DNA of 64,000 nt, from assembly GCA_947034885.2 (NCBI GenBank), contig OX344751.2, forward strand, positions 10,168,001 through 10,232,000, read 5' to 3'. Positions 1,048 through 47,446 of the stretch are shown piece by piece; positions within the stretch are counted from its first letter, which is position 1; each line of letters starts with the position of its first letter. Below the pieces are notes generated by a model. The model was not told the DNA's origin, did not search any database, and saw only the letters and a list, made by a program, of their open reading frames with translations. The stretch comes from Thuidium tamariscinum. Lineage: Eukaryota > Streptophyta > Bryopsida > Hypnales > Thuidiaceae. Position numbers and translations under genes: made by a program.

Positions 1048-1974
1048 CCCCTAAAGTTCTTTGACTATGTTTTCACCAAAAACCCTCCAAATCTGCCATT
1101 TCTAACACAAGTACCAAATATTTGGAAAATACTGTTTTTGGACATATATAACCGTAGGATCTTATAGTATTCAGGTTCGAGAAGACAAGGAAAAAATTTC
1201 AGAAATTTTTACCGCGTGGATTACAAGATATTAGTGTTTGAAGTTACAAAAATCTTTTTTTTATCACTGCGAAAATCCGAGCAGCTGCACTTTACAAGCT
1301 CACATTTGCATGAAAAAGAGTCCAAAATGGTAGTGCTTCTTTGGATTCATTCTCCAAGGCTAGTTGGCTACATGCTCAAAAATTTTCAAATCATTTGGAA
1401 TTGGACAACATATAGAAAAAAAATAGTAAGTAAAAAAAAGTAGAGAATGATTCAAAATACTAAATTGTTAAAAATTTATTTGTGAAATTGAAACTTGACA
1501 ATCCCAATGGTTCAAATGTTGTAATAAACAACCTACATCCAATGTTTTTATTTTTTTCCAAAAATATTGGAAATTGAGTAAAATAAAGGACTTCAAAGTT
1601 TATTTTAGAGTAGGGAATCTATATAACTACCCGCAAACTGAAACTCTTTATAACTTTTGACTCATTAGTCCAAATGGAATGATTCAAAGCTTTCCACATA
1701 TATATAAATCTATTAAACCAATTTCAAATTTTTATTTTCTAGAAAAGTGATTTTTTCTGATTTGCCCAAGCTGCCCGAGTTGAGAAATAAACAACATATT
1801 ATGTGATAACTTTTTAACCATGTCGTCAAAAGTCACAACAATTGTTGGGCTTTAAAGATATTCCTCGTCCACACCTTCTATTAAAGTTTGGTCCCAAAAT
1901 ATGGAAATCTCTAGTCACACATACTTGCCTGAAATAGTTATGTTGCCAAAAAAGGCATGTTGGTCCTTTAGGGG
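1048..1974. mobile_element. TTAA-flanked non-autonomous DNA transposon, copy T1
   Basis: The 927 bp element begins CCCCTAAAG and ends with its complement CTTTAGGGG. It is bounded on both sides by TTAA (1044-1047 and 1975-1978). The left 250 bases resemble, in reverse complement, the right part of T4 (19979-20858): a CTGCCATTTxT block, an ACCGTAGGATCTTATA block and an AAATTTCA...TTTTTACC block occur in the same order. It has no coding capacity. TTAA duplication with termini starting CCC is characteristic of piggyBac or Kolobok elements, so this is read as a MITE-like derivative of one of these. Confidence 0.75.
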
Positions 1975-1978
1975 TTAA

Positions 1979-2571
1979 GGCCCCTCCAATTGATTCTAAT
2001 TCTCTACTTTTGTACAAGAGGCTAAGCCTCACATTCTTGTTGATTCCTATTATGTGGAAATTTCAAGTGTGGAACACCAAAGACTGGTTTAAATATTGTC
2101 ATGTGTACCTCCTTTGGTTGTGAAATCTTGAAATACTAAGAAATTTTAAGAATTTAAAATGAAAGTTTAGTTAAACACTGTCATGTGTACCTCCTTTTGC
2201 GAATAAAATTCTTAAAATACTAACCGACACTTGCAAACGGCGAAGCCATCAACCTTGACATTATAAAGTGACTGATAAGCCTTCAAAATTCCCATCACAA
2301 GTTGATAAAATGTAACACAATTACAACGAAGTGGAAGCCCAAGGCTTGAATTCATCACCAAAATTATCATTATCACTTACCTTCCTCTCATAAGCAATTT
2401 TCTTTGTTGAAAAACTCATAAGAAAAGGAAGATTAATTTGAACTCATACAAGCCAAAGTTACAAGAGTTGATTATTGGCCATCAATTTTCTCTCTTTTAC
2501 TTGTGTGGGAAAAAACCAAAATTTAATCATTTTAAAGACCAAGCCAGTTTGGAGCGGACAGGGCCAGACCA
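1979..2571. other. non-coding AT-rich sequence
   Basis: No gene is visible. It contains a loose internal repeat, since a phrase with GTCATGTGTACCTCCTTT occurs near 2098 and 2187, and otherwise decayed AT-rich sequence. Confidence 0.4.
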
Positions 2572-2727
2572 GGCAGGCGGACTCCAACGGGGAAGGGGTG
2601 CAGCCAACCGGCCAGTGCCATGTGTCCAAGCGGATGAAGCCAAACCCTAGGCAGGTGGACTCTGACGGGAGAGGGGGTGCAGCTAACCGGCCAGTGCCAC
2701 GTGTCCGGGGGACGGGGCCAGTTTGGC
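2572..2727 (+). repeat. two-unit GC-rich tandem repeat, period about 78 bp
   Basis: Units begin at 2572 (GGCAGGCGGACTCCAACGG) and 2650 (GGCAGGTGGACTCTGACGG). Both contain AACCGGCCAGTGCCAYGTGTCC. The block is far more GC-rich than its surroundings. Open frames on both strands through it look like by-products of base composition and are not supported as genes. Confidence 0.65.
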
Positions 2728-4317: not shown

Positions 4318-4553
4318 ATAGTACCAAAAACCCCTAAACTGCAAAGTGTGACATTCAATCGGGGTCTATATTTGAATAGTAAAATATTTTTGAAAATTAT
4401 AAAAAAATCAAGGAAGGTGTATAATAGTTACGCGTACCTTTCCTATAAAGCTTGAGTCATTTGGAGCCAAAACACAAAATTTATGGCCAAAAAACAAATC
4501 AATATGCAACGTGTGATTCAAAATAGTACAAATGATTCTTGCAATTACCCAAT
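4318..4553. repeat. fragment of the GGGTGATTGCAAG repeat family
   Basis: The block with ACATTCAATCGGGGT followed by a TTTGAATAGTAAAATATTTTT-like stretch and ending in TTCTTGCAATTACCC matches the right half of the elements at 8401-9460 and 57928-58652. The left end is missing, so this is a truncated copy. Confidence 0.5.
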
Positions 4554-4607
4554 GACAGTTTGGAGTGGTTTGAGGGAGAAAAATGGCCTTGGTCCTTTAG
4601 GGGTTAA
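4554..4607. mobile_element. solo right end of a TTAA-type element
   Basis: The sequence ends GGCCTTGGTCCTTTAGGGG followed by TTAA at 4604-4607, which is the right terminus of the T1/T4 family. No matching left end was found upstream, so the rest appears lost or overwritten by the repeat fragment before it. Confidence 0.5.
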
Positions 4608-4854: not shown

Positions 4855-6282
4855 CAACACTACCAAATTACTCAACTTTCGAAGAGATTAAGATCAACTT
4901 TGGAATCCATTCCCTTCAAAATCCATGGTTTCAAACTTTGGAGTCCTCCAAATGAATCTAGTAGATTCTTCAACACACCACAATACTCTACATTCAACAC
5001 TTTTAAGTTGCTCAACTTCTAAAAAATTCATAAGGTTTTTGAATTCCACTTCAAAATCCAAATCATTCAAATTTTGGAGATCTCCAAACAAATCTAATAG
5101 CTCTACAAGCTCATTACAATAGCTCAGATTCAAGACTTTCAAGTTGCTTAACTTTTTAAGGAATTTAGATAAACTTTGGATTCTACTCTCTTAAAGATCT
5201 AAGTTTTTTAAGTTTTTGAGGTCTCCAAATGAATTAAGTAGTGCTATGAGAGTAGGAGCTTATACAATTTTTGAAGGTTCAACACTTTCAAATTACTCAA
5301 CATTCCAAAAGATTCAAATAAAATTTAGATTCTACTATATCAAAGATTCGAGTTTTCAAGTTTTTGAGGCCTTCAAATGAATGAGGTAGTCCCATGAGTT
5401 TAGAACAATATTGAAGACACAACACTTCCAAGCTGCTCAACTTTCCAAGAGATTTAGATAAACTTTCAATTCCATCCTTTCAAAAATCCAAGTTTTTCAA
5501 GTTTTCGAGGCCTCTAAATGAATCAGGTAGTGCCATGCGCTTAGAACAATATTCTAGATGCAACACATCCAAGTTACTCAACTTTCAAAAGATTCTGATA
5601 AATTTAGGATTCCATTCCATTAAAGATCTAAGTTTGTTAAATTTTGGAGGCCTCCAAATGAATCTAGTAGTTCCATAAGCTCATGACACCTCAATATATG
5701 CAACACATTCAAGTTGCTCAACTTTCCAAAAGATTAACGTGAATTTTGGATTCCACTCCATTGAAGATCCAAGCTTTTCAAGTCGTGGAGGCCTCCAAAT
5801 GAAATCTGGTAGTTGTACAAGCTCACATCACCTCTGTAGATGCAACACTTCCAAATTGTTCAACTTTCCTAAAGATTCAGGTAATCTTCTGATTCCACTC
5901 CCTTCAAGATCCAAGTTTTTCAAGTTTTCTAGGCCTCCAAAAGAATCTGGTAGTTCCACAAGCTCACGACACCTTTGTAGATGCAACACTTCAAAATTGC
6001 TCAACTTTCCAAAAGATTTAGGTAATCTTTCGATTCCGCTTTCTCCAAAATCCAAGTATTCCAAATTTTGGATGCCTCCAAATGAATCAACTAGTGCCAT
6101 GAGTTCAGAACAATATTGTAGATGCAACACTTCCAAATTGCTTAATTTTCCAAAAGATTCAAGTAATCTTTTGATTCCACTCCCTCCAAGATCCAAGTTT
6201 TTCAAGTTTTGGAGGCCTCCAAATGCATGAGGTAGTACCATGAGCCTAGAACAATATCAAAGACGCAACACTTCCAAGTTCC
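4855..6282 (-). pseudogene. decayed downstream continuation of the LRR array
   Basis: On the minus strand this continues the same alternating LRR units as the TNL gene (SFGKLSNLEVLHLQYC and SFGGLQNLKNLDL types), but with frame breaks. A clean stretch of about 137 codons spans 6241-5828, and degenerate units are still recognisable to about 4894. An 8-base insertion near 6320-6330 (TTGGAAATTTAGA where sister units have TTGGAGTGG) shifts the frame out of the intact gene, and an in-frame TGA follows near 6256. It is best read as repeats now lying downstream of the stop and decaying. A sequencing error at the frameshift would instead make the TNL protein longer. Confidence 0.75.
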
Positions 6283-9200
6283 TCAACTTTCCAAAAGATT
6301 CAGGTAAACTTTGGATCCCATTCTAAATTTCCAATCAACATCCAAGTTTTTCAAGTTTAGGAGGCCTCCAAATGAATGAGGTAGTGCTATGAGCTTAGAA
6401 CAATATTGTAGATTCAACACTTCCAAATTGCTCAACTTTCCAAAAGATTCAGGTAATCTTTCGATTCCACTTTCTTGATCCAAGTTTTTCAAGTTTTCCA
6501 GGCCTCCAAATGAATTTGGTAGTTCCACAAGCTCATCACACCTTTGTAGATGCAACACTTCTAAGTTGCTCAACTTTCCAAAAGATTCAGGTAAACTTTG
6601 GATCCCACTCCAATGAAGATTCAAGTTTTTCAAGTTTTCTAGGCCTCCAAATGAATGAGGTAGTGCCATGAGCTTAGAACAATATTGTAGATGCAACACT
6701 TCCAAATTGCTCAACTTTCCAAAAGATTCAGGTAATCTTTCGATTCCACTCCGTCTAAGATCCAATTTTTTCAAATTTAGGAGGCCTCCAAATGAATGAG
6801 GTAGTGCCATGAGCCTAGAACAATATTGAAGAGGCAACACTTCCAAGCTGCTCAACTTTCTAAAAGATTCAGGTAATCTTTCAATTCCACTCCCTTCAAG
6901 ATCCAATTTCTTCAAGTTTTGGAGGCCTCCAAATGAATGAGGTAGTGCCATGAGCTTAGAACAATATTGTAGATTCAACACTTCCAAGCTGCTCAACTTT
7001 CTAAAAGATTCAGGTAATCTTTCAATTCCACTCCCTTCAAGATCCAATTTCTTCAAGTTTTGGAGGCCTCCAAATGAATGAGGTAGTGCCATGAGCTTAG
7101 AACAATATTGTAGATTCAACACTTTCAAATTGCTTAACTTTCCAAAAGATTCAGGTAATCTTTCGATTCCACTTTCTTGAAGATCCAAGTTTTTCAAGTT
7201 TTCCAGGCCTCCAAATGAATTTGGTAGTTCCACAAGCTCATCACACCTTTGTAGATGCAACACTTCTAAGTTGCTCAACTTTCCAAAAGATTCAGGTAAT
7301 CTTTCGATTCCACTTTCTTGAAGATCCAAGTATTCCAAATTTTGGAGGCCTCCAAAGGAACGAGGTAGTGCCATGAGCTTCAAACAATATTGTAGATACA
7401 AGACTTCCAAGTTGCTCAACTTTCCAAAAGATTTAGGTAATCTTTCAATTCCACTTTCTCCAAGATCCAAGTATTCCAAATTTTGGAGGCCTCCAAATGA
7501 ATCAGGTAGTGTCATGAGCTCAGAACAATATTGTAGATGCAACACTTCCAAATTGCTCAACTTTCCAAAAGATTCAGGTAATCTTTTGATTCCACTTTCT
7601 TGAAGATCCAAGTTTTTCAAGTTTTCCAGGCCTCCAAATGAATCTGGTAGTTCCACAAGCTCATCACACCTTTGTAGATTCAACACTTCCAAGTTGCTCA
7701 ACTTTCCAAAAGATTTAGGTAATCTTTCGATTCCACTTTTTCCAAGATCCAAGTATTCCAAATTTAAGAGGCCTCCAAATGAATGAGGTAGTGCCATGAG
7801 CTTCAAACAATATTGTAGATACAAGACTTCCAAGTTGCTCAACTTTCCAAAAGATTCAGGTAATCTTTCGATTCCACTCCCTCTAAGATCCAATTTTTTC
7901 AAATTTAGGAGGCTTCCAAATGAATTTGGTAGCCCTATGAGGTTTGGAGAATCTACTAGCTTCAATACTTGTAACTTCCTCAAATTTCCAAGAGATTCAG
8001 GCAATCTACTAAATGAATAATTGCTCCAAAACAATATCACTAATTCATTATTCATAGGTACTTTTGGAAAATGACTCAATCCAAAAAATTCATCTGAAAA
8101 ATCAAGCCAATGCAAGTTTTCTGGAAGTGATGACATTGAAAATAAGCCACACCTCCATTTCAATATACGCAATCCTTTTAGGAGAGAGAGGTCTTCGATA
8201 TAATTTTCAAGACGCCATTGAAGGATTAAAGTTTGAAGAGAAACTTGTAGTACCTATTAAGACATTCCAAAACAACTAAATTACAATTGGAAAACTTCAA
8301 TACATAGACTTTTGTTGAAGAAAAGTTATCAATCTAGGCACAGTAAACTCAAAATAGATATATTAAAAAAATTTAATTACTAAAACTAGATGAAGACTAT
8401 AGGGTGATTGTAAGAAACACTCCACGTTTTTGGTTCAAAAATGAAGTTTCTGACTCTTGGACTAGTAGTACTACATGTTAGCAGTGCACCTATAAATATT
8501 AACCATCAATTCAAGGTGCCTGAAAATGTGGATCGTTAGTAAATACCATATAGTACTATAGATTGCTACAAAGTACTGCAAAGGCCACTAGTAGAAAATA
8601 GTAGAAAAGAAGTTTGTGGACCTTTTCATTTTTAGTAATTCAAAAAAAATTCAAAATGTTATTTTAAAAAATCCACTTTTCTAGACAAAATTGTACTCAC
8701 ATTGCAATAAAAAATTCCTCTTTCAATTTTTTCCCTCTTTGAAGCCTCTACGCAAAGGAAAATCACTTTGATTCCAAGTGTGCAATATACATGTTCCTAT
8801 TTTCATAAAAAATCATCATCAATGCTTGTAATGGTACTAGTAGGGTTTGAGTGTCATGTAGAACATCCAATATTACATGTCGCACGTGACAACTTGTCAC
8901 AAAAACATCGCAACTTGTTGCAAAAATCCATTTTCAGCAGCTCAAAAAAATGGAAATCTTACTATAACTATGAATCTAAATTTTAAATGTCATATGTAAT
9001 TATAAAATTGAGACACTTAATTGAAACCAAACTTATATATGTCAAAATTTTTAATTTTTAATGATTTATTTTTAAGTCAATTTGAGACGTCTCAAGGACT
9101 CTATTGGATGTGGCATGATGTTTGTCTATTGCATTGTCACACTGTGTAGGAAGAAAATCCTAGACACTAGACCTCCAACTAGTTCAATTTGTAGCTTCAA

Positions 9201-11464
9201 ATTTGGAATTTAGGGTAAAAAATAGGGCTAAACCCCCCTTCAAATTGGTTAAGGTAAACACCCAATTGCGGGTAGGTTAAAAATAGTAAACTAATTTTTA
9301 AATATGTGAAAAAAAAACTCAACATCTAAAACTTTTGTATGTCCTTAGTTTCAAATTTCAAGACAAATAAACAAAAGATGCAAAAGTTATTAGTAGAAAA
9401 CTACATGTTTGAGGTCAAGGGGACCAAAAAAAAAGACAAGTGTTCCTTGCAATCACCCTACAAATATAACAATTCCTAGATCCTCAAACAATCAAACTAA
9501 ATAAACATTAAAAAGATTCACCAAATGAAAAGTCAATAATTAAAAACCATACCTCATTCTTGTTCAACAGTTCCAAGGATTTGGAATCCCACAAGCGTTT
9601 GCAAATACCCAAACTCACTTGTTCTTGCTTGCAAATTGTATGGCCCATGTCTCGCAAGTGGTCATGCATGCCAAAGTTACCATACTCATCCACTCTAATC
9701 AAGGCCTTCTCTACAAGGCTACGCACACCCAATGCTACAGACCAACCTTGGGATTTCCAAACAAGTTTAGCTGCCTCTACTGATGCTCCCAGTAATGCAC
9801 ATGCAATATCTAAAAACATTTCTTGATATTCTTCTTGAAGAGAGTCATAGCTAATCCGAAGACAGTCAAATATCTTCCTTTCATCCATAATAGTGCCACA
9901 TTTCAACTTCTTCAACACTTCCTTCCAAATCTCCACATCTTCTTCATCCCTCAAAAGAGATCCACAAACCTTCAAGACCAACGGAACTCCACCACATGCC
10001 ATACTAACATCTCCAATAAGACCTTCAAATGTTGGAGGCACTTTCAAATCACCTCCAAATGCATGACATGCAAAGACACTTTGAGAATCTTCTTTGTTCA
10101 AGATTTGAACATCGTGCGTAAAAATCTCATGATTGAGATGAAATGAAGTTGACTTCTCAAATACACGACGGTTTCGAGAAGTGACAATGCACAAGCTACC
10201 TTCTTTTAGCATTTTACGTGACATCAAATAATCCATTTCACTATCATCACAAACATCATCCAAAACTACAAGAATGGATTTCTTAGATAACCTTTCTTCA
10301 AGGATAACCTTCCCTTGCGATTTATCTATGGTATTTTGTAATGACTCATTCTCACACAAGGCCTTCATAATATAATTTTGGACACTTGTTAATCCACCTT
10401 GATTCACCTTCTCCACCACATCTCCCACATAACACTTTGCGTCGAATCTTCTCCTCAATTGGTTGTACAACTCTCGTGCCAAAGTAGACTTTCCAATTCC
10501 ACCCATTCCCCACAATCCCAACATCAACACTTTCTTCTCATCAAGTATTTGAATGAGGTTTTCAGCAACTTGCTTCACGCCTATAATATGATCACCCTCA
10601 TCCAAGGGAAGGGGCTTATTTGCCAATTCAAAGAGCTTTCCAACAACCTCTAGTACCAAGTCCTTTTCCAACCTACAAACAATTTGAAGCAGATTTCATC
10701 AACACAAACTACAATGTCAATGTCAACTTCAACTATAATACTCTTTATTAGATAGAGTGCAAACACACATATTTACCTCTTGTCTCCCACTTTGTATTCC
10801 CAACCATAGAGCTTCGAAGCTCTTTCCAAATCAACCCTCCATTCTTCAATCAAAGCATTATCATGTCTTTGTGACAACTTCATAAATCCACTAGCTAGTT
10901 GGCCTTTTTTTGGAAATCTCACTTCCCATGGTTGAACTTTGTAGAAGATTGGAAACACCTTCATTGAAGGAGAGTTCAAAATTGTGTGTAATTCTTTCAT
11001 ACACCACTCGGATTGTGCAAAACTCTCAGAAAAGATGACTAAAGCTAGGGGTGTTGTTGTGATAGCATGATCAATGCATTTCCAAGAATCTTGGCCTTTA
11101 CCGATGGATATGCAATCCAAAAAGGGATGCAACCCAACTCTTTTCAAAGCTTCGTATAAATAGCCCACAAAGCTTGACTTGGTGTCAGGGCCTCTATGAC
11201 TTATGAAAACATCATAGTTTCCATATTTATCTGAACAACAACCAACTATTAATTCTTATTGGCAATTCAACAATTTATGAATTAATATATATTTTGGAAT
11301 CAATTTCAAAATCCACCATTGATAAAAAAAACTATAAGTTATGATATTGGAATTTCAATAGGCAAGGGAAAGGCAAAAAGGTTGGTAGTGACAAAATTCT
11401 TTATACCTTCAATTGTACACAATTTCTTGGAATGCTCAATGTGACCTTCCATTCCACTTGTCAT
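6283..11464 (-). CDS. TIR-NBS-LRR (TNL) intracellular immune receptor, four exons
   Basis: Proposed exons on the minus strand are 11464-11407, 11230-10777, 10672-9553 and 8253-6283. The introns have GT/AG borders with compatible phases, giving about 1,200 residues with no break. Exon 1 starts at an ATG and encodes 19 residues. Exon 2 is the TIR domain: it opens YGNYDVFISHRGPDT and keeps the SEWCMKEL segment that holds the catalytic glutamate of TIR NADases. Exon 3 is the NB-ARC ATPase: P-loop GMGGIGKSTLA, kinase-2 LVVLDDV, RNBS-B CIVTSRN, GLPL as CGGVPLVLKV, and MHD as FGMHDHLRDMG. Exon 4 holds a linker and about 24 leucine-rich repeats in two alternating types, forming a 47-residue (141 bp) super-repeat. 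Family knowledge: such proteins sense pathogen effectors inside the cell and signal through TIR enzymatic activity. The C-terminus is altered by a frameshift, so function is likely but not certain. The exon 3/4 join spans a 1.3 kb intron containing a repeat. Confidence 0.88.
8401..9460. mobile_element. repeat element with GGGTGATTGYAAG termini inside a TNL intron
   Basis: It starts AGGGTGATTGTAAGAAACAC and ends GTGTTCCTTGCAATCACCCT, forming imperfect inverted repeats of about 20 bp. A related element lies at 57928-58652 and a fragment at 4318-4553. It fills most of the large intron between the NB-ARC and LRR exons. No coding sequence is visible and the target duplication is not clear, so the superfamily is unassigned. 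Confidence 0.6.
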
Positions 11465-13344: not shown

Positions 13345-16277
13345 TAATTCAACTCTTTAAGTTGCTTTCATTCAATGTAATCATGTATTACATTAGTTAA
13401 TAAATCAAAACATGTAGATTCCAATATCTTGCAATATGCATTCATAATGAAAACTCAAAATTACATTATCCATTATAGTTAGTGATTATGTACATTCAAG
13501 AAAAAGTATTGAGTACCCTAAAGGAAGGAACAATGTAAAGAAGATCTCAATGTTTGTACACATACTTAACTCAAAAGAAATGTCCTTAATTGAAGGAAGA
13601 TATACAAAGCTTGTTTCAAGAAGATAGGATTGACTCAACAAATAGTGATTAGAATAAGTATTGGCAAGCCATATTTAGTGATTCAATGACAAATCTAGGA
13701 TGTTGTTGTCAACACTCTATTCTTTAAAAAGAAAGAATTTGAAAGCAATAATGCTTCACAACTAAACCCATCCAAAAGCATCACTACACCTTGCAGCAAG
13801 AACATTCTTCAATCCATTTATCTATTTCAATAGGAGTAGGGGCAAGAATTGTCAACTAATGGATGTTCCACGTGTCCTTTTTTCAACCTCTAGGCCTATA
13901 TATACACCCCCAAAAACAAGTCCTCAATTCACATGCTATATAAAATGGATTGCACAACGGAATAGGTAAGAAAAAACAAAACGTAAGGAAACTATACCCA
14001 ATTGGGTTTTCTTCCAAAATCCAAAAACTACACATTCTTGCTTGCCTAAAATGCACTATCTGTATTCAAGCCTCTATTCATGCTGGCCTAAGATAGTTTT
14101 TGGATACAGCACTTTCAAAGTTCATAACTTATGCCTTTAGAATCCAAAAGATGCATAAGAAGACAATCTATAATACTCTTTGGACATCAAAGAAGATCCA
14201 CCCCCCCAAAATAAGGCAATTCAACAATAAAGAGAACACAAGTTATCTTACACATTTCAGCAAATCAGTTCTATAAAATCATATGGCATTGGAAGCACAA
14301 ATTCACACCTTACAATCAAACCGCCGATTTGCCAAGATCTCTGACTTGCACAACATGGCAAGGGGATGGCCAAGTGAACCAGACTCACCTGAACAGGATC
14401 CAACAGAGTCCTCCAATTTGCACACCTTTCAATCTTCGCCTTGCACTAGAACCTCCACAAACGACACTTCCAGAACCGAATTAAACGCAAGCGATGCACC
14501 AAGCCCCTTGAAAGCCACCTGCTGACATACACAGCACCGCGGAAAGCTTAGCATTGTGTGTAAACATTGAGAGCACTTACCGTCTTTTTCGTACACACAA
14601 CGAACAAGGTGGGTTTACAAGCAGATGGCTCAGTTGGAAAAGAAGTGTTCATGCTTACTCAACAGTGAGTTTCGGATCACCGATTTTGGTTGAAGGCTCT
14701 ACACCGTCTCTGCCGTAACTGCAATTATATTCACTGCAAATCAGACACTCCCTTGATGATCAACTTATTGCAAGAAACGAAAACCAAGAAACATAACTTG
14801 CAGGCTGGTGAAGTGCTTACACAAACTGCCGTTTGCCATCGAACACTTGGCTGCGATAAAAGCTAGCTCCAACCCGTGCTGAAGGGAAATGGCTTCCGAC
14901 TCCACTCTGTCTCATGATCAGCAAGGACAACGTTTTTGTGAGACAATTGAAAGCAACATGCCACGGGAGAGAGTTCTACCATCTGGACTTGAGAATCAAA
15001 TCTCAAGGTTGACAGTAGATTTAGGTTGTTTTGAAAACGTGAGACTCAGGGAATCACAAGGTCATAGTATCAACATTCTTCGCCATGCCGCATGGAGAAG
15101 TCTCCCTAATGATCAATATTATTCTAGTGATATTCCTGGCATATAACCGTGATAATCGTATAGAGGTCTCGCATCATGGGAATATCACTGCAATCGTTAT
15201 GACCACAAAGAGATCTCAGATTCTCTTTGCGATGCTTTACCCAAGCTCCGGAAATTAAGCAATCTGTTATCGCTGGAAATTATATAGGTCCAAAAGGAAA
15301 CACCGCAGTTCAGAGGGAATAAGAACACAACACAATTTGACTGACTTCAAGATTTTCAGATGTCTGACTTTTACTCTTGATCAGCTCTTTAGGTTGATTG
15401 TTTTTATTCCATGTAACTACATGGAATAGAAGCAAACATGTCGGTACATGATTAAAAATCAGATTCCAATCTCTGCAACGTGCATTCATGATGGGAACTT
15501 GAAATTGCAGTTGTAGTTAGTGATTAATTAATATGTGCTTTCAGAAAATAGTATTGAGTTCAAGCTGTAAATAGAGAAACAGAGTACAGATAAGATCTCC
15601 GAGTTTGTACAAACATGCAAGCCATTAGAAAATGTTTAGAGTTACCCTAGAGTTCAAAGAAGACTTGAGGAGCTTGTTTCAAGGGAAAGGCAGGATTGAC
15701 ATAACAAAAAATACTGTGAATAAGTGTTGGCAAGCCTTATTTAATTGGTTACCTTAAGCTTTTGTAGTCGAAAGATCGATCACTTTGATGGAACAATCCG
15801 CATGCTTGCCAGAACCATCTGCTCGCTTAAAACTCCACCGAAATCACAGCAACACGAGCATACAAGAATATATACCCACGAAATAACGTCTGGATCGAGG
15901 TGCTGAACCGCAACCCGAAACGAAAGACTTCACCGATCGAGCTACTGTCAATGCATCATCGATGCAGCTAGAGCACTAATTAAGACGTCGAAGTCGGGCT
16001 CCAAGCACACACTAGACGCAAGGGAAACAAGGAGATTGGTACTCCAAGCAAAGCCTGGAGCGTGCAAAATGCTTCTCAAGAAGCACTGCAACTTTGCAAT
16101 GAGGATAAGAAATACTCGATCGACGAGGCGACCTGATCATTCAAACAATCCGAGGCAAGCCCGAACGAGCGATAGTCGGGGGGGAGGACTCGACCTGGGC
16201 AGGAAGACTTTGTCAAAAAAGCCGGTCCTACCTACCTGGAAGTGCGACAATCGTGCCCATGTTTCCCTGTGACAAGT

Positions 16278-16529: not shown

Positions 16530-16661
16530 TTCCCTGTGACAAGTAAGCTTTCTACCACCAGACGTTTGCTCGGTCGGTCCAATGACTCCGATGTGCGTGC
16601 AAAGACTTGCTTCCCCTTTCGTACCACTGACTCAAGCCTAAACAGGAATTGAATGCACTGT

Positions 16662-35082: not shown

Positions 35083-35394
35083 AATGATGAATTTTAAGTG
35101 CGTCTTTGGAACTTCAAATTCCGAGTGTAACCACAAAAAGGGTGAAGATCTCCGCAGGAATAAAAATCGTCAATAAAGTAACCGATATAGTTTGAAAGAA
35201 GCCTTGGAAACCAAAGCCCCCCTGACCACTGAACTATGCATTACCAAGCAAGGGACACAACCGAAATTGCAGCGCCTAGCCCTTGGAAATCTTAGCGTTC
35301 AGCTTTACAGGAGTGCTTGCGAATGACAATTTCTGGAAACTTATACTCAGTTCTAAGGTTGCTCTTCGTGACCGTTGCAACGGACGGGAGACAA
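35083..35394. other. upstream region of the hAT ORF
   Basis: The sequence between the hAT start codon and GC island 2 has moderate GC content. No clear TATA box is seen. It should hold the 5' leader of the minus-strand gene. Confidence 0.4.
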
Positions 35395-35480: not shown

Positions 35481-36370
35481 CCCAAAGGACCAAGAGTGCA
35501 CTTGGGGGACTTCAAGAATTTGGGCAGTTACTTGTCACTTCAATTTTGAACGAATTCGCTAGAAATTTTCACATAACTCAGATAGAAAACTTGATTAGCT
35601 CTGTGGGAATATTATTCTTTTCCAATTGGTGACCGTGAGCAAAAGTTATGCCATCTTCAATATCATTTTCATGTCGCCGGGAAGAAAAAAATCATCAAAA
35701 ACTTCAGAATTAAAAAAATAATTTTTTTTTCTAATTGATTTTATTTTTGTCTACAAGACTACAAGTGAAGCTTTGATTCATTCAATTTGGATTAGTGATG
35801 TGAAAGTCATGAACAATCTTGTTTTTTAGACAATGTAAGCATGTTTTTAAAAAAAAAAATTTAGGATTCACTTGTGAATGCAATTTCCACAATTTTCAAT
35901 AAAAAATTGTTGGGCAAGGTTGTTTTTGCTTGCCAAAACAATTTCACCATTCAGATTATAGTGTTTCAATTCAATGTATGAGATCTTTGCAATTTACTTT
36001 CTCTTTCAATCTTGGACCTACATGTACTTGACAATTTTTTAAAGAATGAAAAAACACACTTTTGTTGCTGAATTTGTTTTCCTGAGCTGTTACCTCAATT
36101 TCTCAATAGAAAAAAGTTTAAATTCAAGGTCTATAGTGCAAAAAAATTACAGAAATGGAGGACAAAGTCATTTGCATTTGCAAACTCAAGTTCAAAAAAA
36201 CATTGTTTTCCAACTTTGAATGCTCATATTAGGGTCAAACTTCATGAAATTTCCACCACATTGGATACAACTTCTATGAAAATCTGAAAGAAAAACCCAA
36301 AAAAAAACCCATTCATAATGAGTTGTTCGATATTCCTATATTCCAAAAAACCCAGTTGGGTCTTTAAGGG
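35481..36370. mobile_element. T4-family element, copy T6 (target site decayed)
   Basis: It aligns throughout with T4: left CCCAAAGGACCAAGAGTGCA against CCCCTAAAAGCCCAATGTGC, the middle phrase GTGAAGCTTTGATTCATTC, and the right end GTTGGGTCTTTAAGGG. The flanks are no longer TTAA (ACAT and CTTT), so the edges have mutated or it was moved as part of a larger event. The left edge abuts GC island 2. Confidence 0.7.
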
Positions 36371-36947: not shown

Positions 36948-39900
36948 CTACGGTGTAACACGAGATGGACCCTCTCTATCCCTAAGTCTTGCACTTGTAC
37001 GGCGAGTGTGAGGACCGGGGCTTCCGTCGCCAGTGGACCCTCTCGAAGCCACTGCCATATCAACAGCACTGAATTGTCTTTTTGTTTCTGGAGAGAAGTC
37101 ATCCTCATCTTCCACCCTCCGCTTATTCTTTCGCTTCTGAGGCAGATCCACTTCATGTGCCTTTAATGCTTCCAAGGCATCATCTACTGAAGCTACCATT
37201 AAGTTCAGTGTTACATTGACATCTCCAACGGAAAACCAGTGCGGGCCGGGGCCATCTCCTCCCACTAAAAATTTTCGAAAAGACATTATGGCCTCGCTCA
37301 TCCTCCTGTCAAAAGCCCCTGCCACTTCCACAATTGACTGTGAGGAGTTGGAATCCCCGTCTAACTCTACAAGAGCTCGAACCTGCGCAGCTTCTTCCAA
37401 CTTTGACAGGAAGAGGGCCCTCCCTATCAATGTGTGATTGTACGCCCCGTATCGCTCTTGCAACTCTTTTGTATGCTCCACATCCACCCAATTGCCATCT
37501 GGTCCTTTGTTCACTTCCTTCTCTGGAAATCGAAAGAACTTGTGATGGTCTATGCTCCAATGCCCACCTATGCCGCGACAAAACAATTCGCGAGCTTCGG
37601 GATCTTCAATACCCCTTGCTCGCAATTCCACGTGTCGATCTTGGGTCATCCACACAAAGGGATCTAGCGGCACCATTGCCTCTTCATACAACCCATGCTT
37701 CTCTTCCAATGAATCCCACGTGAGAGGTTTTCCCCAATGCATATAATTTTGGAAGTAAAACGGGGCTTGATCAAGTGGAAGGGTCCATCGATTGTATTCG
37801 TGACTAGGGGGCATACATTCCAAGGTCCCAACCATTTCGTAAAACCTTGAACTCAAAGGAGAACGACACTCCGGACAAACCGAGCGAACGAGTGAGGCTT
37901 TGATTATGCACGTCACATGGAAAGTGTGACGACATTGGCCCATAGTTAGGGCTCCCTCGGGACCAAATGGACCTTGACAAATGCTGCATTTACCTTCCAA
38001 GATCCCTCGAGAAGTGTGAGAAGCATGCACCACTGTCTTCTCATTGTCCTTGATGTGTGCCGAAAGAGTGTTGTACGGAACCCAACCTTCTTCTACCTCC
38101 AAGGCCCAATTGATGTGGGGTGATTCTTCTTTCTTTGTGTGGTTCAACCGCTCGAACATCGCGTCCATGTCTCCCCAACATGTGATTTCTGTAGTCCCCT
38201 TCGGATGTGTTTCAAACCTCTTCCTCATACTCATCAGTGAAGATTCTACTATTTGCTGTTGCTCATCCGATTTTCCAGCCAATTTGAGAAGCCCTTTCAT
38301 TGCTCGCGAAACTACAGTTGGTTTGTCTTCTAGTTTTTGAATCCATGCCAACCATCGATCGTCTTTGGTACTCTTTGGAAGGGAGTCATCCAATCGAAGA
38401 ACATGCTCTAGTCGTTGCAATTCACTCTGCAAAGACGCGTTTTCTTCGGTGAGCTTCTCCACTTTCTGCTTCAATTCATCAACTTCATGGCATTCTGTTT
38501 GAATGGGAGCATCTTGAAATGAAGTTTTGCGATTTTCAATGGCCACTAGAGGTGTCACTTCATGTATCTTTTTTTTCTCATCGCCACTAAAATGCTTAGC
38601 TCCATCTCCTTCCTTAGCTTCGGTGAACTCACCTTTTTTGATCACGTCCTTCAATTTCTCAACTTCTGACTCCAAATCTTTAATACGATCACTTTGCCAT
38701 TTCACAGTTGCAACTTGAAATTGTGCCGTATTCTTAGAAGTCCTCAATTGCTCTACCATTTCGTTTGAGGTTCCCTTCAATTCTTTCTGCAAGGCCAGCA
38801 GTTTTGTATTCTCTTCCAAGAAGGCCACCAATTGGCGCTTGTCCTCGAAGCGCTCGTCCAAAAACGGTAACAAGGACTCGGTGAACTTATGAAACGTCAA
38901 TGCACTTGCCAACAATTCAGGTGACAATTTTGCAAACTCCTGTGCCACCTCTGTAAGTTGCGGAGATACTTCAGTTACAAATCGACCTAGAGTTGCCAAT
39001 GTCACTTGGATTTCAGCAACAGTTGCCCAACTGTGACGATTGGCTTCACCTTGGGTTGCAATGCTTGTGGTGGCCTCACTTGTCTCTTTTGACCGGTTTA
39101 GGTCAAGAAGGTGAGACCCAAACATAACTGAACCCTCCAACAACCGTTCCAGCTCTGCGGCATTCGGCATGTTCGAAAGAGCCTCCAATTGTGATGTGTT
39201 CAATGTGGACAAATGCGGGTATTGGCTGGGGATGACTTCAACATCGATGACTACTTCTTTTCCTTTTCCCTGAGACGCCTCTCCATTTTTTTTGGCGGTA
39301 GCTGCTTCAATTCTGGCGCTCTGTACGGGGCTGGAAACGCTCGGTTTGCTCAAACATGATGGTTTAGGGTTTAGCCCGAAGATGTCGAGAGCATTACTGT
39401 CAATAATATCATGAATTGTAGCATTGGCCTCAGCAACTTCTCCCTCGGCTACCTCTTCCGTATCTTCAGTACCTTCACATCGAGCCAATGGGGGCCCACC
39501 TTCTTTCTTCCCACTTTGAATATCTTCAAGAATGCCCTGTTCAGCCACCGTCGTAACATTTGGTGTGCATATTAAATCTGTAGGAGGAGTTGCAAACACT
39601 TCTCCTTCCACACCTTCACCTTCAGTATCTTCCATTGTCCTCAAAGTGTGTGTAGGCTCACTAGGCTGCAAGCGTGGTCCATCACTTGGTACCTCTGAGA
39701 CTTTTGTTTCAATTTTTCTAGTATTTTTTAATACTCTTTTGGGCTTCGGTACCTCACTTGGCCCTCCTTGAGGATTGTACAAATCGGGAATGTCTTTTCC
39801 ATTCATTTCTTGTACAAATGGAGTTTGTGCTGTCGTCGGATACGTGCTCCAATCCACCTTGCGTTCCAATATCAATTCTGCATACACCATAGAAGCCAAG

Positions 39901-40265
39901 CTGTAGTTTATGTACCCTTTACTCATTGCTTTCTTTCCAAAGAGGGCCTGCCAAACCTCCAAAGCGCGATGCACAAAATGCGCGTTGTTGCAGTTGGTGG
40001 GTTTGCAAAAAAATCCACGTGTATGAAGTTCATGGGCCTCCCTAGGCCACAACTTGTCAATGTGATACATTTTCACGTATTTTTTGCACATTTTTGAAGA
40101 CCAATACGGTGCTGCCTCATCCTCCCATCCGTTTTCCGCTTTGATGTTTGGGTCATCCAAAATCTCATAATGTAATTCGTGACTGGCGCCCTTTGGCTTA
40201 TGCCTTCGATTGTCACCACCCGCTGGATTTATTCCCCCACCACGTTCTTCACCCTCACTTGCCAT
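36948..40265 (-). CDS. large RING-H2 finger and coiled-coil protein, unknown family
   Basis: The uninterrupted frame encodes 1,105 residues from the ATG at 40265 (MASEGEERGGG). An in-frame ATG at 40385 is possible but lies too close to the TATA box at 40425. An N-terminal segment with WEDEAAPYWSSKMCKKYVKM (about 45-130) looks folded. A long acidic/Pro-Ser linker follows. Two coiled-coil stretches lie near 490-545 and 595-625 (DELKQKVEKLTEENASLQSE). A RING-H2 finger lies near 760-800 (CSICQGPF...CRHTFHVTC...CPEC, C3H2C3), giving a likely E3 ubiquitin ligase activity. A Trp-rich folded tail and a basic C-terminal motif (QKRKNKRR) resembling a nuclear signal end the protein. The absence of introns in such a long gene is notable. 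No named family is recognised. Confidence 0.8.
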   Translation of the reverse strand: MASEGEERGGGINPAGGDNRRHKPKGASHELHYEILDDPNIKAENGWEDEAAPYWSSKMCKKYVKMYHIDKLWPREAHELHTRGFFCKPTNCNNAHFVHRALEVWQALFGKKAMSKGYINYSLASMVYAELILERKVDWSTYPTTAQTPFVQEMNGKDIPDLYNPQGGPSEVPKPKRVLKNTRKIETKVSEVPSDGPRLQPSEPTHTLRTMEDTEGEGVEGEVFATPPTDLICTPNVTTVAEQGILEDIQSGKKEGGPPLARCEGTEDTEEVAEGEVAEANATIHDIIDSNALDIFGLNPKPSCLSKPSVSSPVQSARIEAATAKKNGEASQGKGKEVVIDVEVIPSQYPHLSTLNTSQLEALSNMPNAAELERLLEGSVMFGSHLLDLNRSKETSEATTSIATQGEANRHSWATVAEIQVTLATLGRFVTEVSPQLTEVAQEFAKLSPELLASALTFHKFTESLLPFLDERFEDKRQLVAFLEENTKLLALQKELKGTSNEMVEQLRTSKNTAQFQVATVKWQSDRIKDLESEVEKLKDVIKKGEFTEAKEGDGAKHFSGDEKKKIHEVTPLVAIENRKTSFQDAPIQTECHEVDELKQKVEKLTEENASLQSELQRLEHVLRLDDSLPKSTKDDRWLAWIQKLEDKPTVVSRAMKGLLKLAGKSDEQQQIVESSLMSMRKRFETHPKGTTEITCWGDMDAMFERLNHTKKEESPHINWALEVEEGWVPYNTLSAHIKDNEKTVVHASHTSRGILEGKCSICQGPFGPEGALTMGQCRHTFHVTCIIKASLVRSVCPECRSPLSSRFYEMVGTLECMPPSHEYNRWTLPLDQAPFYFQNYMHWGKPLTWDSLEEKHGLYEEAMVPLDPFVWMTQDRHVELRARGIEDPEARELFCRGIGGHWSIDHHKFFRFPEKEVNKGPDGNWVDVEHTKELQERYGAYNHTLIGRALFLSKLEEAAQVRALVELDGDSNSSQSIVEVAGAFDRRMSEAIMSFRKFLVGGDGPGPHWFSVGDVNVTLNLMVASVDDALEALKAHEVDLPQKRKNKRRVEDEDDFSPETKRQFSAVDMAVASRGSTGDGSPGPHTRRTSARLRDREGPSRVTP

Positions 40266-40407
40266 GACTTTGAGTCCACCACTGTCGGGAAATGAAAAAT
40301 TAGTTTGATCACCCAACTCTCCACCTCGTAGGATACAACTGGCACAATGAAGCAACAGTAGAACATCCGACAAGGTTGAACCCAATAATGGAGAGGAGTG
40401 AAAGAAA

Positions 40408-40662
40408 TCCGTCCGCCGTCCGCCCTTATACCCGTCCGACCCCGAACCTAACTGGGGTCGGCACCGACCGTCCGCCCGAACGACACGAAGCGGCCACGAG
40501 GGCGGACAGTCCGCCGCCGTCTGCTCTCGACCCTAGAAGCGCCGCCGAAGCTCCCGTCCGCACGCCCAAACCTAGTCCGCCGTCCGCAGTAGCGGTCCTC
40601 CCGTCCGCAGTTGCCGTCCGCAGGTGCGGAGGCGCCGTGCGCCGTCCGCGCGTCCGATGGCT
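40408..40662. repeat. GC-rich CCGTCCGC island 3
   Basis: Units such as CCGTCCGCCGTCCGCCC and GTCCGCAGTTGCCGTCCGCA are packed from just upstream of the RING-H2 gene. Read in the direction of that gene they are CGGACGG units. The TATAAG box at 40425-40430 lies inside the array. The many overlapping open frames here are compositional. Confidence 0.75.
40425..40430 (-). promoter_or_regulatory. candidate TATA box of the RING-H2 gene
   Basis: On the minus strand the sequence is GGGTATAAGGGCGGACGG. The start of transcription would fall near 40395-40400, giving a leader of about 130 bases to the ATG at 40265. The kinase-like gene has the same arrangement at 44366, GGTATAAGATAGGCGGACGG. Confidence 0.55.
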
Positions 40663-40887
40663 CTGTAAACTCGCGTTTAAGCCTGGGATTCTCCTGTGCG
40701 TGTGTCCTCGGATTCGAAGTCCGCCAGCAAAGCAAACAGCGCGCAATGAGGAATTCACTAATTCAGGATAGGGATCCAATGTTCAAGTTATTTAAATTTA
40801 GTTCTTGTAAAATTATAGAAGGAATTTAAAGCAAGCAATGGTAATATGTGCAATTTTTTTATATTTCTGAGACTTTCTCAAGGTCAA

Positions 40888-40940
40888 GGGTTTAGGGTTT
40901 AGGGTTTAGGGTTCGTAGGGTTCGTAGGGTTTAGGGTTTA
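40888..40940 (+). repeat. interstitial telomere-type repeat (TTTAGGG)
   Basis: Three to four TTTAGGG units are followed by two TTCGTAGGG variants and further TTTAGGG. This is the plant-type telomere heptamer. The short length and internal position suggest a repaired break or microsatellite growth, not a chromosome end. Confidence 0.7.
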
Positions 40941-42245
40941 TTGTTTAGTGGCAATTTTCATATTTCATGACATTCTATTGAAAAAGAAATTTGTATGCCA
41001 AATATCATCATTATGTAAATGATTAAAGTGAATATCCAATAATGTAGAAGACAGACACAACAAGTCAACAACACATATATGAATTTGCTTTCGAATGCAG
41101 TACTTTTATCTTGTCATGTAGTCATGTACTCATGTGACTAATCAAAATAGAATGATTTTGAACTTTACATGTACATATTGAGCAACTCTTAGTCTATTCT
41201 AACTAAATTTTCATCGTTATAGGGAATCCCTTCAAGCATTTTATTAATACTTTTTGTTTTTGTTTTTTACCAAGCTAACTCTAAAAATGAGCAATAAGCA
41301 AAATAAATAAAATTTCAAGGATTAGTTGGAACTATAGGATTTACAACAGCCAATATTTTACTACGTAGTCCACAATGTCCTCTAACTTATGTTTGACAAA
41401 AGACATTGTTGGATAGAAGGTAATTCGAAGTCATTCATGTTTGACTTCACTAGCTCTACAATACACATGTTTAGCCACTGTTCGTACAATTGTACCCATA
41501 GGGTCTCATATAAATACATAATATAGAGCATATATGAAATTTTTTGGAAATTTTACTTGCCCATGCAAAGTTTTGGCAAATTTGTTTCACTATGACTACT
41601 AGCACTCATGCCCCCAAGGGATGTAAAACACATTAGTTATATCCAAACAAACCTCCTAAAGTATTTGTACCCCAACCCCATATATACCAACCCTATACAC
41701 TTCAATCTTATTTGACGCAATCATGTTTGTCTGTTTGTCAAAACCTTAATTACTGAGGCACCTTAAACCGCTCACCTATTTAACCGGATGTCCTTCACCG
41801 TGTAAGCTCTTGTCTTACCTGACTCCATCCACCAAGAGCCAAAGACCCCATCTACCGTGATGTCTAGGTCTTATCTATATTACACTATCCATTTGTTCAC
41901 AAATTGAAAGTCCTTAGCTCAAACATTGGAATTTGAACTGTAGATTTTTGCTTTCAAAAATTGGTATTAATGGATCAAATATCCAATACAGCATTAATGT
42001 ATGAAAAGGTAATTATATATATGTTTTTATTTTTAAAAAAAGAGAATGGTGACAATAGTGGTATAGGTAATATACTAATATGCAAACGGAATCTCAAATT
42101 CAAAGTCTACAACTTTGATTTGTACATCATCAATTCTAAAATAATTTTCCAAATAATATTGGATGATGATTTTTTTCCAATCTTCAATTTTTGAGAAGAT
42201 TATAAATGTTTAAATAAGGGATTACTAGAAAATAATGAGGAGTTT
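40941..42245. other. non-coding AT-rich sequence
   Basis: No supported gene or clear repeat is seen. Short open frames lack recognisable protein features. Confidence 0.35.
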
Positions 42246-44396: not shown

Positions 44397-44587
44397 GCAT
44401 TCTTATCTTCCCCCTTGTGTTTCACAAGAGAGAGCGGAGAGCTTGGTGGTTAATCCTCCATTGGCTCCTTTCTAAGGGAAGTTAGGAGTGGGATTTAGGG
44501 CCAACTTGTTGCCCTTTTTTTGTATATCTTTTGTGCATTGTGCTTGAAATCAAGAGTTTTTAAACTCTTATCATTGATTTGATCACG

Positions 44588-46075
44588 ATGCCGAAAGGAA
44601 AGAAGGTAGCAAAGGCAAAACCGGTAGCGCTAGACATTGAGGACATGCCTTCGGATGATTGCAAGGCATATGTCATCCGTATCATAGTGCAGTTTTATGA
44701 GGAGGAGAGCACTGCATCCCTTGATACCAAGTACATCCGATACGAAGAGGAGTGCATTGAGAAGTTCAAATCGGATATGACGAAGAGGATGACGGATGCT
44801 CTCTTTGTTCCAGGATGGATTCATGAAACGGAGAAGAGAGGCTTCCAAAGGTTTCTGCAGAACAGGGTGCAAGATTCATTGTGGAATGCCAAAGTGGTAT
44901 TGACAAAGTACGGGAAGGAACATCGGGTGGATGATCCCACATTTGAAGAAGTCATTTTGAAGGCGGACTTGTTTGTACAACGATGTGCTCCGTTTACAAA
45001 GAATGCTAGGAAACGGAAGGGACAAGGATCATTGGGGTGGTGGAACACGGATGAAGGAGCTCTAGAATTGCAACGTGGGCGGCGGCATCTTGTGGCATTG
45101 CCCATTACCGCAAGGGTGATTCCACAAGACAGTACGGTCTTGAAGGGGGGCTATGCAACAATACAGAGGGTGCGAATTGAAGGATGTGCTGAGATACCTG
45201 CCTCTTGGGAGTTTGCAGCGAAGGTATCGCATCAACAACGCTTGAGGCCTCAACTCGCAAAGTTGGAACACCAGAACGAGTCAATGGCAGTGCGGATTCC
45301 ACATGACGGAGTTATACGATTCGCAGCAGTCCATGGAACAAACAATGAAGGGTACATGTATTGGTGGAATGGTGGAACGTTGAGGCAAATGTTGAACATG
45401 GATAGGGACTATCCAGATGACATTCACATTCGATTGGCTTATTCCAAGCCATCACCCGAAGAGGTGAATCGAGCATTCTTTCTAGCTCGATGGAGAAGGA
45501 AACGAACGGAGCTCGCATGGGCATTGGTGCACATTTTGCATGCGGTGCATCAAGCGGGGCATCTACACAACGATCTCTCGCCGGACAACATCATGTTTCA
45601 CTTTCCGGATGATGAGTCACGTGTATATATTGGGGTTTGCGATTGGGGCATGACTACCGTACATAGTGATCCACCCAAATCCTTGTACACTTTCACATCT
45701 GAAAGTGAGAAGAAAGAAGCTTTGCAAAGAAGATGGTGGGTGGATCCGTCTATTGTGTATGTGCATAAGAAAGATGCAGATGTGGAAACGATTCCACATT
45801 TATCACGTAAATCAGAAGAGTTTGCGGTTGGTAAACTAGCTCAACAGATCAACAAGCAATGCATGTCCAAGGAGTACGCGGCGCTCCATCGTGATAACAG
45901 AGGACATACGAAGTGGAGCCACCATGAGTTAGGACTTGTGTTTCATAATTATTTGGAACTTCTGTGTTCTACAGATGTAGAGAGGGCAGTAAGTTTGACT
46001 AAAATCGTCCAACGATTTACTGGCCCAGGTTACAATTGGCCTATCCCAGATGAACATTTCCGCCATTCATATTAG
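44588..46075 (+). CDS. atypical protein-kinase-like protein, single exon
   Basis: The frame encodes 495 residues from the ATG at 44588 (MPKGKKVAKAK); the frame is open nine bases earlier from a TTG. The N-terminal 170 residues are charged and unassigned. The kinase fold follows: a glycine loop variant LKGGYATIQRV near 185-195, a lysine in FAAKVS near 211, the catalytic loop as HLHNDLSPDNIM near 323-334 (HND in place of HRD, with Asp and Asn kept), and the metal-binding motif as CDWGM near 350 (DWG in place of DFG). Key catalytic residues are present, so phosphotransfer is possible, but the glycine loop is weak. No signal peptide or membrane segment is visible. The intronless form and the island upstream match the RING-H2 gene. 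Confidence 0.78.
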   Translation: MPKGKKVAKAKPVALDIEDMPSDDCKAYVIRIIVQFYEEESTASLDTKYIRYEEECIEKFKSDMTKRMTDALFVPGWIHETEKRGFQRFLQNRVQDSLWNAKVVLTKYGKEHRVDDPTFEEVILKADLFVQRCAPFTKNARKRKGQGSLGWWNTDEGALELQRGRRHLVALPITARVIPQDSTVLKGGYATIQRVRIEGCAEIPASWEFAAKVSHQQRLRPQLAKLEHQNESMAVRIPHDGVIRFAAVHGTNNEGYMYWWNGGTLRQMLNMDRDYPDDIHIRLAYSKPSPEEVNRAFFLARWRRKRTELAWALVHILHAVHQAGHLHNDLSPDNIMFHFPDDESRVYIGVCDWGMTTVHSDPPKSLYTFTSESEKKEALQRRWWVDPSIVYVHKKDADVETIPHLSRKSEEFAVGKLAQQINKQCMSKEYAALHRDNRGHTKWSHHELGLVFHNYLELLCSTDVERAVSLTKIVQRFTGPGYNWPIPDEHFRHSY

Positions 46076-46570
46076 TATTTTAGTGTTTTACGTAGAAGTA
46101 CATAAGTATTGAATAGATGTACCGGCAAGGAAATATATCCCTATGTACTTCAAGTCCTCAACTATATCTTAAAAAGATGTGTGCATCACAAATTTTCCCA
46201 AATATATGTGCAATTCACTTCTATCTCACATTTGTTTTTGCATGTTTTGGTCTTTTGGAACCTGTCATGATGAGTTGACCCTTGAAGCCTTGAAGTATTG
46301 GTTCTTTAGATTTTGATCTACTTGGAAAGTTTTGAATAATTCCATTTTGATTTGTAAGATGAACATTAGGCCCTATGGGACTTACTAATTTTTCTGGAAT
46401 TTTGTGTACATCTCCCAATTGGTGCACTAGAAGATCTTAGGGTTACATGTGTCACTTCTAGTTTAAAATTTTTAAGTATGACCCATGGTTACATCCATAT
46501 CGATAACTCTATTGCTATGTCAATTAGATTTTTAAAATGAAATTGTACATTAATTGGGAAATCCTTCTTA
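46076..46570. other. 3' flank of the kinase-like gene
   Basis: AT-rich, without a supported ORF. It probably holds the 3' untranslated region of the gene before it. Confidence 0.4.
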
Positions 46571-47446
46571 CCCCTAAAGGACCAAGGCCTTCTTTTTGTC
46601 AATAAACTCTCGAAATTGCCAATTCTGTTGCATTCATCGAAGAAAAAATAAAATAAAAAAATTTAAGGATCTAACCGTAGGATCTTGTACTTAACTTGAT
46701 TGAGATTAAGTGGTAAAAATTTCATGAAGTTTGACCGTACAGATTGGAAGATATGAGCATTCACAGTGGGAAATACAAGTTTTTTGAACTGCGGTTTGCA
46801 ATTTCAGATGACTTTGACTGGAATTTGTATTAAAAAATCGCATTGAAGACTTTGAATCTATAATTTTTTGTGTCAAGAAATTGAGTTGAGAGTCTAGGAA
46901 AAAAATTTCACACAAAAACACTTGATTTTCATTCTTTTGCAATTGTTAAGTAGATGTAGGTCCAAGATTGAAAGAAAAAACGAATGGTTAATAACTCTAA
47001 GATGGGATCTAAATACAATAATCCCAATGGTGAGATTGTTTTAGAAAGTAAACCTTACCCTGTCCAACAATTTGTTTTGAAAAATAGTGAAAACTGCATT
47101 TTTAAATGAATCATGTATTCCTATAAGTTATTTTTTCAAGAAATTGTTTAGATTGACCGAAAAACAAGATTGTCCATAACTTTCTCATTGTAAGTCCAAA
47201 AAGAGTGAATCAAAGCTTCACATGTAAGCAATATTATATTATTTTAGAAAAATTAAATTAAAAAATTAAATTCTGACTTTTTGCAAAAAATAAAATTCTG
47301 CCCGGCGAATGAAAATTTGGGCTTTTTGTGGTATAACGTTTTCTCCCGGTCACCAATTGAAATAAAATTTACATTCCCATGAAGCTAATCAGTTTTACTA
47401 TCTTATGAGAAATTTTCAAAAAGATTCATTAGAAATTGAGGTCAAA
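46571..47446. mobile_element. T4-family element, copy T5, inverted and truncated
   Basis: It begins CCCCTAAAGGACCAAGGCC, preceded by CTTA (a decayed TTAA). It then follows the reverse complement of T4, including ACCGTACAGATTGGAAGATA and TCACCAATTGAAATAAAATT. Similarity stops near 47446, about 60 bases before the other terminus, so that end is lost. Its orientation is opposite to T4. Confidence 0.75.

Follow-up and report, generated by a model that had tools for sequence, protein, structure and literature searches.

The 64,000-bp stretch of Thuidium tamariscinum DNA analysed here (hereafter the window; bases 10,168,001 to 10,232,000 of contig C3 in a genome of 363 Mb and 19 contigs) carries six short elements, T1 to T6, that are almost certainly non-autonomous piggyBac transposons of a moss nuclear genome, similar in kind to miniature inverted-repeat transposable elements (MITEs). 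This assignment is made from sequence comparisons, and it draws on full-length relatives of 5.0 to 7.8 kb elsewhere in the genome that encode predicted piggyBac transposases of the DDD type. In the mechanism we propose, the encoded transposases would bind the common CCC(C)TAAA ends, excise the element so that a single TTAA remains, and insert it at TTAA. The transposases of the full-length elements would mobilise T1 to T4 in trans, T2 and T3 would be members of the piggyBac superfamily too, and copying would be recent or ongoing.

Short TTAA-flanked elements in the window

The elements, together with an additional fragment and two related empty sites, are as follows.

1044 to 1978, minus strand: T1 (1048 to 1974), putative non-autonomous piggyBac element with TTAA at 1044 to 1047 and 1975 to 1978, recognised by its copies and by end homology to a full-length element on contig C9.
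4551 to 4607, plus strand: right-end fragment of a T4-type element, reaching to 4603, with TTAA at 4604 to 4607; perfect 14-mer, 81% identity to T4 positions 828 to 880.
17313 to 18232, plus strand: T2 (17317 to 18228), TTAA at both flanks, recognised by its ends and by full-length copies of 88 to 93% identity.
18963 to 19826, plus strand: T3 (18967 to 19822), TTAA at both flanks, with the terminal motif CCCTTAAATG as in the full-length element L030.
19975 to 20862, plus strand: T4 (19979 to 20858), TTAA at both flanks, with end regions collinear with the full-length elements L031 and L036 and an empty site at 51138 to 51445.
35481 to 36370, plus strand: T5, degenerate element of the T4 family, flanks without TTAA, 68% identity to T4 over 800 bp.
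46571 to 47446, minus strand: T6, element of the T4 family with one terminus at 46571 and the other end truncated, 73% identity to T4 positions 57 to 880.
51138 to 51445, plus strand: related empty site of T4, flanks 78% identical, single TTAA at about 51281 to 51284.
59174 to 59480, minus strand: related empty site of T2, 75% identical, junction diverged with GCAG for TTAA.

A preliminary description of the window, prepared from its sequence alone, had reported six elements with CCC-type inverted ends, four of them with intact TTAA on both sides. The TTAA of T1 to T4 is exact at both flanks, the ends of these four are inverted and of CCC type (TCC/CTC in T2), and this part of the description stands. 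T5 has CCC at both ends and no TTAA in its flanks (left ...CCTACAT, right CTTTC...), and T6 has one good terminus, at 46571, next to a flank reading CTTA. The other end given for T6, at 47446, is not a terminus, and the alignment of T6 to T4 lacks the first 56 bp of T4. The observation on T1 to T6 is in this sense partly confirmed. The T4-type end at 4551 to 4603 had not been included in it.

The six elements fall into several sequence groups. T4, T5 and T6 are mutually 68 to 73% alike across 750 to 880 bp, while T1 has only short stretches in common with these three, T2 shares a single 39-bp stretch with T6, and alignment of T3 to T4, T5 and T6 gave no common stretch. The window has 7 sites that resemble TTAACCCCTAAAGG with at most one mismatch, whereas 200 Markov sequences gave 0.045 on average (maximum 1). 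When up to three mismatches are allowed, there are 16 sites against 8.2 expected (30 runs), and because this excess is weak, lone weak ends were disregarded. Those with two or three mismatches, at 12611, 13130, 23069, 30406, 43270 and 54329, are near chance and were left uncounted.

Genome-wide copies and their flanks

Searches of the genome with each family scored the best 40 candidates, and copy counts are lower bounds. For T1, the best 40 of 9,435 candidates are all near full length and, besides T1 itself, 92 to 96% identical. The best 40 of 1,210 candidates for T2 include the full-length copies mentioned above, the best 40 of 988 for T3 are 84 to 100% identical, and 32 of the best 40 of 6,281 for T4 align in one near-full piece (T4 included). 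Among the copies scored, the best one other than the element itself reaches 96% for T1, 93% for T2, 100% for T3 and 83% for T4. The preliminary description had suggested a single family that was old or diverse; the diversity is borne out, in the form of several families, while the close copies found elsewhere speak against one old family. Five T3 copies with near-equal scores lie within 1 Mb (C6:24748776-25694519), which suggests segmental amplification on this contig.

The flanks of these copies show a strong excess of TTAA. The 15-mer CCCCTAAAGGACCAA occurs 3,671 times exactly in the genome and is directly preceded by TTAA in 3,265 cases (89%), compared with a background of TTAA at 0.7% of window positions. 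TTAA is present at 16 of 16 ends in eight T1 copies, including the T1 of the window. The tally of flanking tetranucleotides that the preliminary description had proposed was made on 40 further chosen copies, 10 per family, and gave TTAA at 69 of 80 ends (T1 18, T2 19, T3 17 and T4 15 of 20 ends each); 31 of the 40 have it on both sides. In this reading a shift of up to 3 bases was allowed, mainly needed for T2, whose alignments stop short; the copies were taken near the tops of the lists, and rows stopping earlier were skipped (two for T2, three for T4). The base next to TTAA on its outer side differs from copy to copy. One T1 copy has TTAG at both sides, which fits a four-base duplication at a rare target.

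Empty sites

Joined flanks from 30 insertions were compared with a sequence set made up of the collected loci and the window. The flanks of T4 match the window at 51138 to 51445, where the junction is a single TTAA, and a T1 copy in locus L005 has an empty-site match of 81%, again with a single TTAA. The full-length element L036 is inserted in a dispersed repeat, and a search with the 304 bases of its joined flank gave 41 rows that all cross the junction. In the two of these rows that were read, the empty sites L125 (94%) and L126 (91%), a single TTAA is found each time. Such sites are the expected outcome of precise insertion by a piggyBac-type transposase.

These data bear on the idea that T1 to T6 are PIF/Harbinger or Tc1/mariner MITEs whose TAA/TTA or TA target sites read TTAA by chance. 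Both are common MITE superfamilies in plants, yet with a duplication of 2 or 3 bp the outer bases would be unconstrained, and complete TTAA stands on both sides in the 31 copies counted above, TTAG is repeated on both sides of one copy, and the empty sites contain a single TTAA. The 3-bp TWA duplication of PIF/Harbinger is not what is seen, since four bases are repeated. The full-length relatives described below also encode PF13843 transposases, and we give this explanation practically no credence.

The window itself contains two repeat pairs, 16001-18966 with 59174-61519 (inverted, up to 95% identical) and 19823-21994 with 51138-52397. T2, T3 and T4 interrupt these pairs on one side only.

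Full-length elements and their transposases

The Pfam family PF13843 (DDE_Tnp_1_7, the piggyBac transposase domain) was matched in 116 scored sequences out of 658 candidates, all above the cut-off and all located on ten large contigs, C1 to C10, of 24 to 54 Mb each. The window contains none of the 116, which agrees with the preliminary description that no transposase gene is present there. None of 14 control genomes contains a match; those named are prokaryotes, so that this control says little about plants. Six long frames match with E values from 5e-77 to 1e-80, and so do two partial ones.

One open frame of 1,023 amino acids accounts for 11 of the 116 matches. The ten of these loci that were fetched, on contigs C1, C2, C5, C8 and C9, all represent the same element of 5,096 bp (both TTAA counted), with different flanks and TTAA at 20 of 20 ends. 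Eight copies are identical and two have one substitution each. Copying of this element appears to be very recent, because only two substitutions are found in about 51 kb. As an observation apart from this, at the right flank of locus L018 (C2:19452000-19459500) a near-identical full-length piggyBac copy lies precisely at the TTAA that borders a T1-type element.

Comparison of the 1,023-residue protein to solved structures points to the same superfamily (piggyBat, PDB 9c0f, E = 3.4e-27; Trichoplusia ni piggyBac, PDB 6x67, E = 1.1e-22). Three of its aspartates align with aspartates of piggyBat and T. ni piggyBac that we take to be the catalytic residues of those enzymes, and these positions (D676, D781 and D897) are invariant in all eight aligned transposases. 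The seven other transposases from this genome are 28 to 66% identical to the first. A cysteine-rich C-terminal tail was recognised by eye in seven of the eight proteins, with the frame of L035 stopping before it. Stop-to-stop open frames are 521 to 1,023 amino acids long in the elements read, many with long N-terminal extensions. By eye, we recognised within these a segment of about 38 residues, which leave-one-out searches recover in five of seven proteins at 14 to 39 bits, with shuffles at or below 9.5 bits in the five passing tests. The tests for L027 and L033 fail, with shuffles there at 12.3 to 12.6 bits, and the weakest passes, at 14.0 and 14.4 bits, are not far above this. L031, L032, L035 and L036 gave no match to the segment, and Pfam gave none at its position in the proteins scanned; it is a lead only.

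Where ends could be found, full-length elements start with TTAACCC. The individual ends are CCCCTAAACGCCGG (L017), CCCTTAAATGACCCTG (L030), CCCTAGAACGCCCAA (L035), CCCCTAAATGCCCAAA (L031 and L036) and CCCATTAACGCCGG (L029), with terminal inverted repeats that match at 16 of 16 positions in L030, 15 of 16 in L035 and 12 of 16 in L017.

The near-identity of the 5,096-bp copies, by which at least one lineage is very young, would also be compatible with contamination or a single, very recent horizontal transfer in place of a resident moss superfamily. A scan of viral contigs with the transposase alignment, which bears on the question of a donor, gave 24 stretches with the pattern, none of them confirmed, and yielded no relative. 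Against this explanation stand the spread of the 116 matches over ten large contigs and the position of the window's short derivatives close to a plant TIR-NBS-LRR gene. A single recent arrival is unlikely because the other transposases are only 28 to 66% identical to the first. We regard contamination or one such transfer as improbable, and several piggyBac arrivals over time are possible.

Linking the short elements to the full-length ones

For T1 and T4, the ends of the short elements resemble those of elements that carry a transposase. T4 positions 1 to 139 align with positions 1 to 139 of L031, an element of 5.1 kb (69%), 608 to 785 with 4861 to 5040, and 827 to 870 with 5082 to 5125, all in the same order. 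The full-length element with the same ends that the preliminary description had suggested looking for exists on contig C9 (C9:16263599-16271393). It is 7,795 bp long (TTAA counted), starts with CCCCTAAAGGACCAA, has the inverted CCCCTAAAGG at its other end, and contains a 521-residue open frame with the piggyBac domain; a search of its interior found no further end of the TTAA-CC type. The T1 of the window and five T1 copies match the first 135 to 181 bp of this element at 70 to 74%, and the same six match stretches of 20 to 164 bp within its positions 7444 to 7603 in matching order. This end homology to transposase-bearing elements means that T1 and T4 are best read as short derivatives of those piggyBac lineages. 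T5 and T6 are tied in through their similarity to T4 and through short matches of their own. The ends of T2, CCTAAAGGACTAA, are like those of T1 and T4, and T3 has the terminal motif of L030.

TTAA target duplication is also common to Kolobok, and a second TTAA-targeting superfamily could in principle have moved the short elements, above all T2 and T3, which are connected to piggyBac by motif alone. PF13843 piggyBac transposases are encoded by elements whose ends are like those of T1 and T4, and the T3 motif is that of a piggyBac element. On these grounds piggyBac is favoured over Kolobok by end homology for T1 and for T4, T5 and T6, and by the terminal motif alone for T3 and T2. Kolobok does not appear to be needed to account for T1 to T6, and its involvement is very improbable, although no search aimed at a Kolobok transposase was made. 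The preliminary description had interpreted the elements as plant transposons that target TTAA and are of piggyBac or Kolobok type, and this interpretation is supported by the excess of TTAA and by the full-length relatives with a piggyBac-type DDD transposase. It had also named two findings that would speak for something else, genome-wide copies without an excess of TTAA and an autonomous relative from a superfamily with another target duplication; neither turned up.

Several observations weigh against the assignment of the short elements to piggyBac, or limit how far it can be taken. In the short elements the inverted repeats are both short and imperfect, and the homology between short and full-length ends is only about 69 to 74%. 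In the outermost ~190 bp at the right end of the C9 element, T1 aligns in the terminal motif only, and because of this and the modest end homology no exact mobiliser is assigned to T1 to T4. Neither the C9 element nor any of the seven full-length elements compared gave an alignment with T2 or T3, the agreement being in the motif only. Ends were located for 7 of 11 full-length candidates and were sought and not found for L027, L032, L033 and L034; those of L028 and L029 are lower-ranked pairs picked by eye, and ends were found in one of three further candidates tried. TTAA is present at only 15 of 20 ends in the T4 copies, and since copies were chosen among alignments that reach both ends or nearly so, intact ends are favoured in the tally. 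A match across the junction was obtained for only 4 of the 30 joined flanks, and four of six alignments read have another tetranucleotide there (one T1 copy, compared with three repeats, shows TTCC, TTCA and TTAT; T2 shows GCAG). On the separate matter of piggyBac being unreported in land plants, published tables list 60 piggyBac copies (2,318 bp) in Stellaria (PMC13180808) and 1,230 'PiggyBac' copies (122,417 bp, 0.00%) in a fern (PMC6890710); automated piggyBac labels therefore exist in land plants.

Genomic setting

The window also contains several genes and repeats apart from T1 to T6. A TIR-NBS-LRR resistance gene with frames for the TIR, NB-ARC and LRR parts lies at 4909-11255 on the minus strand, its LRR part including some 20 tandem units of 141 bp each (81% matches). 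Also on the minus strand are an uninterrupted 1,118-residue frame with DUF659 and a hAT dimerisation domain (31813-35169), a hAT-like transposase, and a 1,194-residue frame with a RING finger (36948-40532) near CGGACGG-type tandem repeats. On the plus strand, an SRA-domain frame (30709-31431) lies shortly downstream of a retrotransposon gag-like frame, and a 503-residue frame (44564-46075), with a weak protein-kinase match below the Pfam cut-off, adjoins GGACGGCC tandem repeats. At 40887-40948 lies a short internal array of AGGGTTT, a repeat unit of plant telomere type.

Contig C19 is a plastid contig (115,000 bp; 25 to 28% GC in the four 10-kb pieces read) that carries chloroplast genes, among them rbcL and accD; its gene content and sequence point to a bryophyte. 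Mosses characteristically lose rpoA from the plastid, and the rpoA C-terminal domain was found only on the nuclear contig C2 (the plastid contig may be incomplete). Judged from these sequences and from the resistance gene in the window, a land plant as host is firm and a moss likely.

Comparison to known piggyBac elements and implications

piggyBac is known mainly from animals, whereas the host here is a land plant. The moss elements are like piggyBac of T. ni (PDB 6x67 and 6x68) and piggyBat (PDB 9c0f) in the PF13843 domain, the three aligned catalytic aspartates, the cysteine-rich C-terminal tail (7 of 8), the CCC-type ends, the TTAA duplication and the single-TTAA empty sites. They differ in size, at 5.0 to 7.8 kb, from complete bee elements given as about 2.2 to 3.5 kb (PMC10140906). 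Their stop-to-stop frames of 521 to 1,023 amino acids, many N-terminally extended, contrast with piggyBac transposases of about 580, and their first bases are often CCCC, unlike the CCYT motif described in PMC10175614. Kolobok shares the TTAA duplication, while the transposase found with the moss ends is of piggyBac type. A haptophyte alga also provides a photosynthetic host with potentially autonomous piggyBac (14 such copies, with 0.26% of the genome in the table; PMC5963040), but it is no land plant.

Reports from land plants are sparse in the sources consulted. Plants are named as piggyBac hosts without detail in PMC10140906; the tables for Lathyrus, cork oak and bamboo and the text on switchgrass report no piggyBac, and a feather grass survey lists one piece of 75 bp. 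The main text on the moss Ptychostomum knowltonii gives terminal inverted repeat (TIR) transposons as 29.13% of the genome, with CACTA the largest group, and does not mention piggyBac (PMC11704416). Searches of openly licensed papers brought up none on native piggyBac transposons of a moss, and for other land plants nothing beyond such table entries. The superfamily is already known; an abundant, recently active form of it in a land plant did not come up in these searches.

On a broader reading, mosses would long have harboured piggyBac as a diverse DNA-transposon superfamily that still moves, and annotation with few plant superfamilies, or with libraries that lack plant piggyBac entries, would have missed it; we put this forward tentatively, at somewhat less than even chances. 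Common TIR classifiers use few plant superfamilies and are not known to include piggyBac, and repeat libraries presumably have no plant piggyBac entries. Part of the 'terminal inverted repeat transposon' share in mosses may be misfiled piggyBac.

piggyBac is among the leading scar-free transposons for gene delivery. In plants it is used as an import from animals, as two titles in the reference list of PMC12732532 indicate. On the broader reading, the moss enzymes may be endogenous, scar-free plant transposases with an N-terminal module of their own. If piggyBac is native to a land plant, abundant there and copied very recently, the host range of the superfamily would be wider than has been known, vertical descent versus horizontal transfer into plants would become a testable question, native plant transposases would be on offer, and repeat annotation in mosses would seem to have overlooked such elements.

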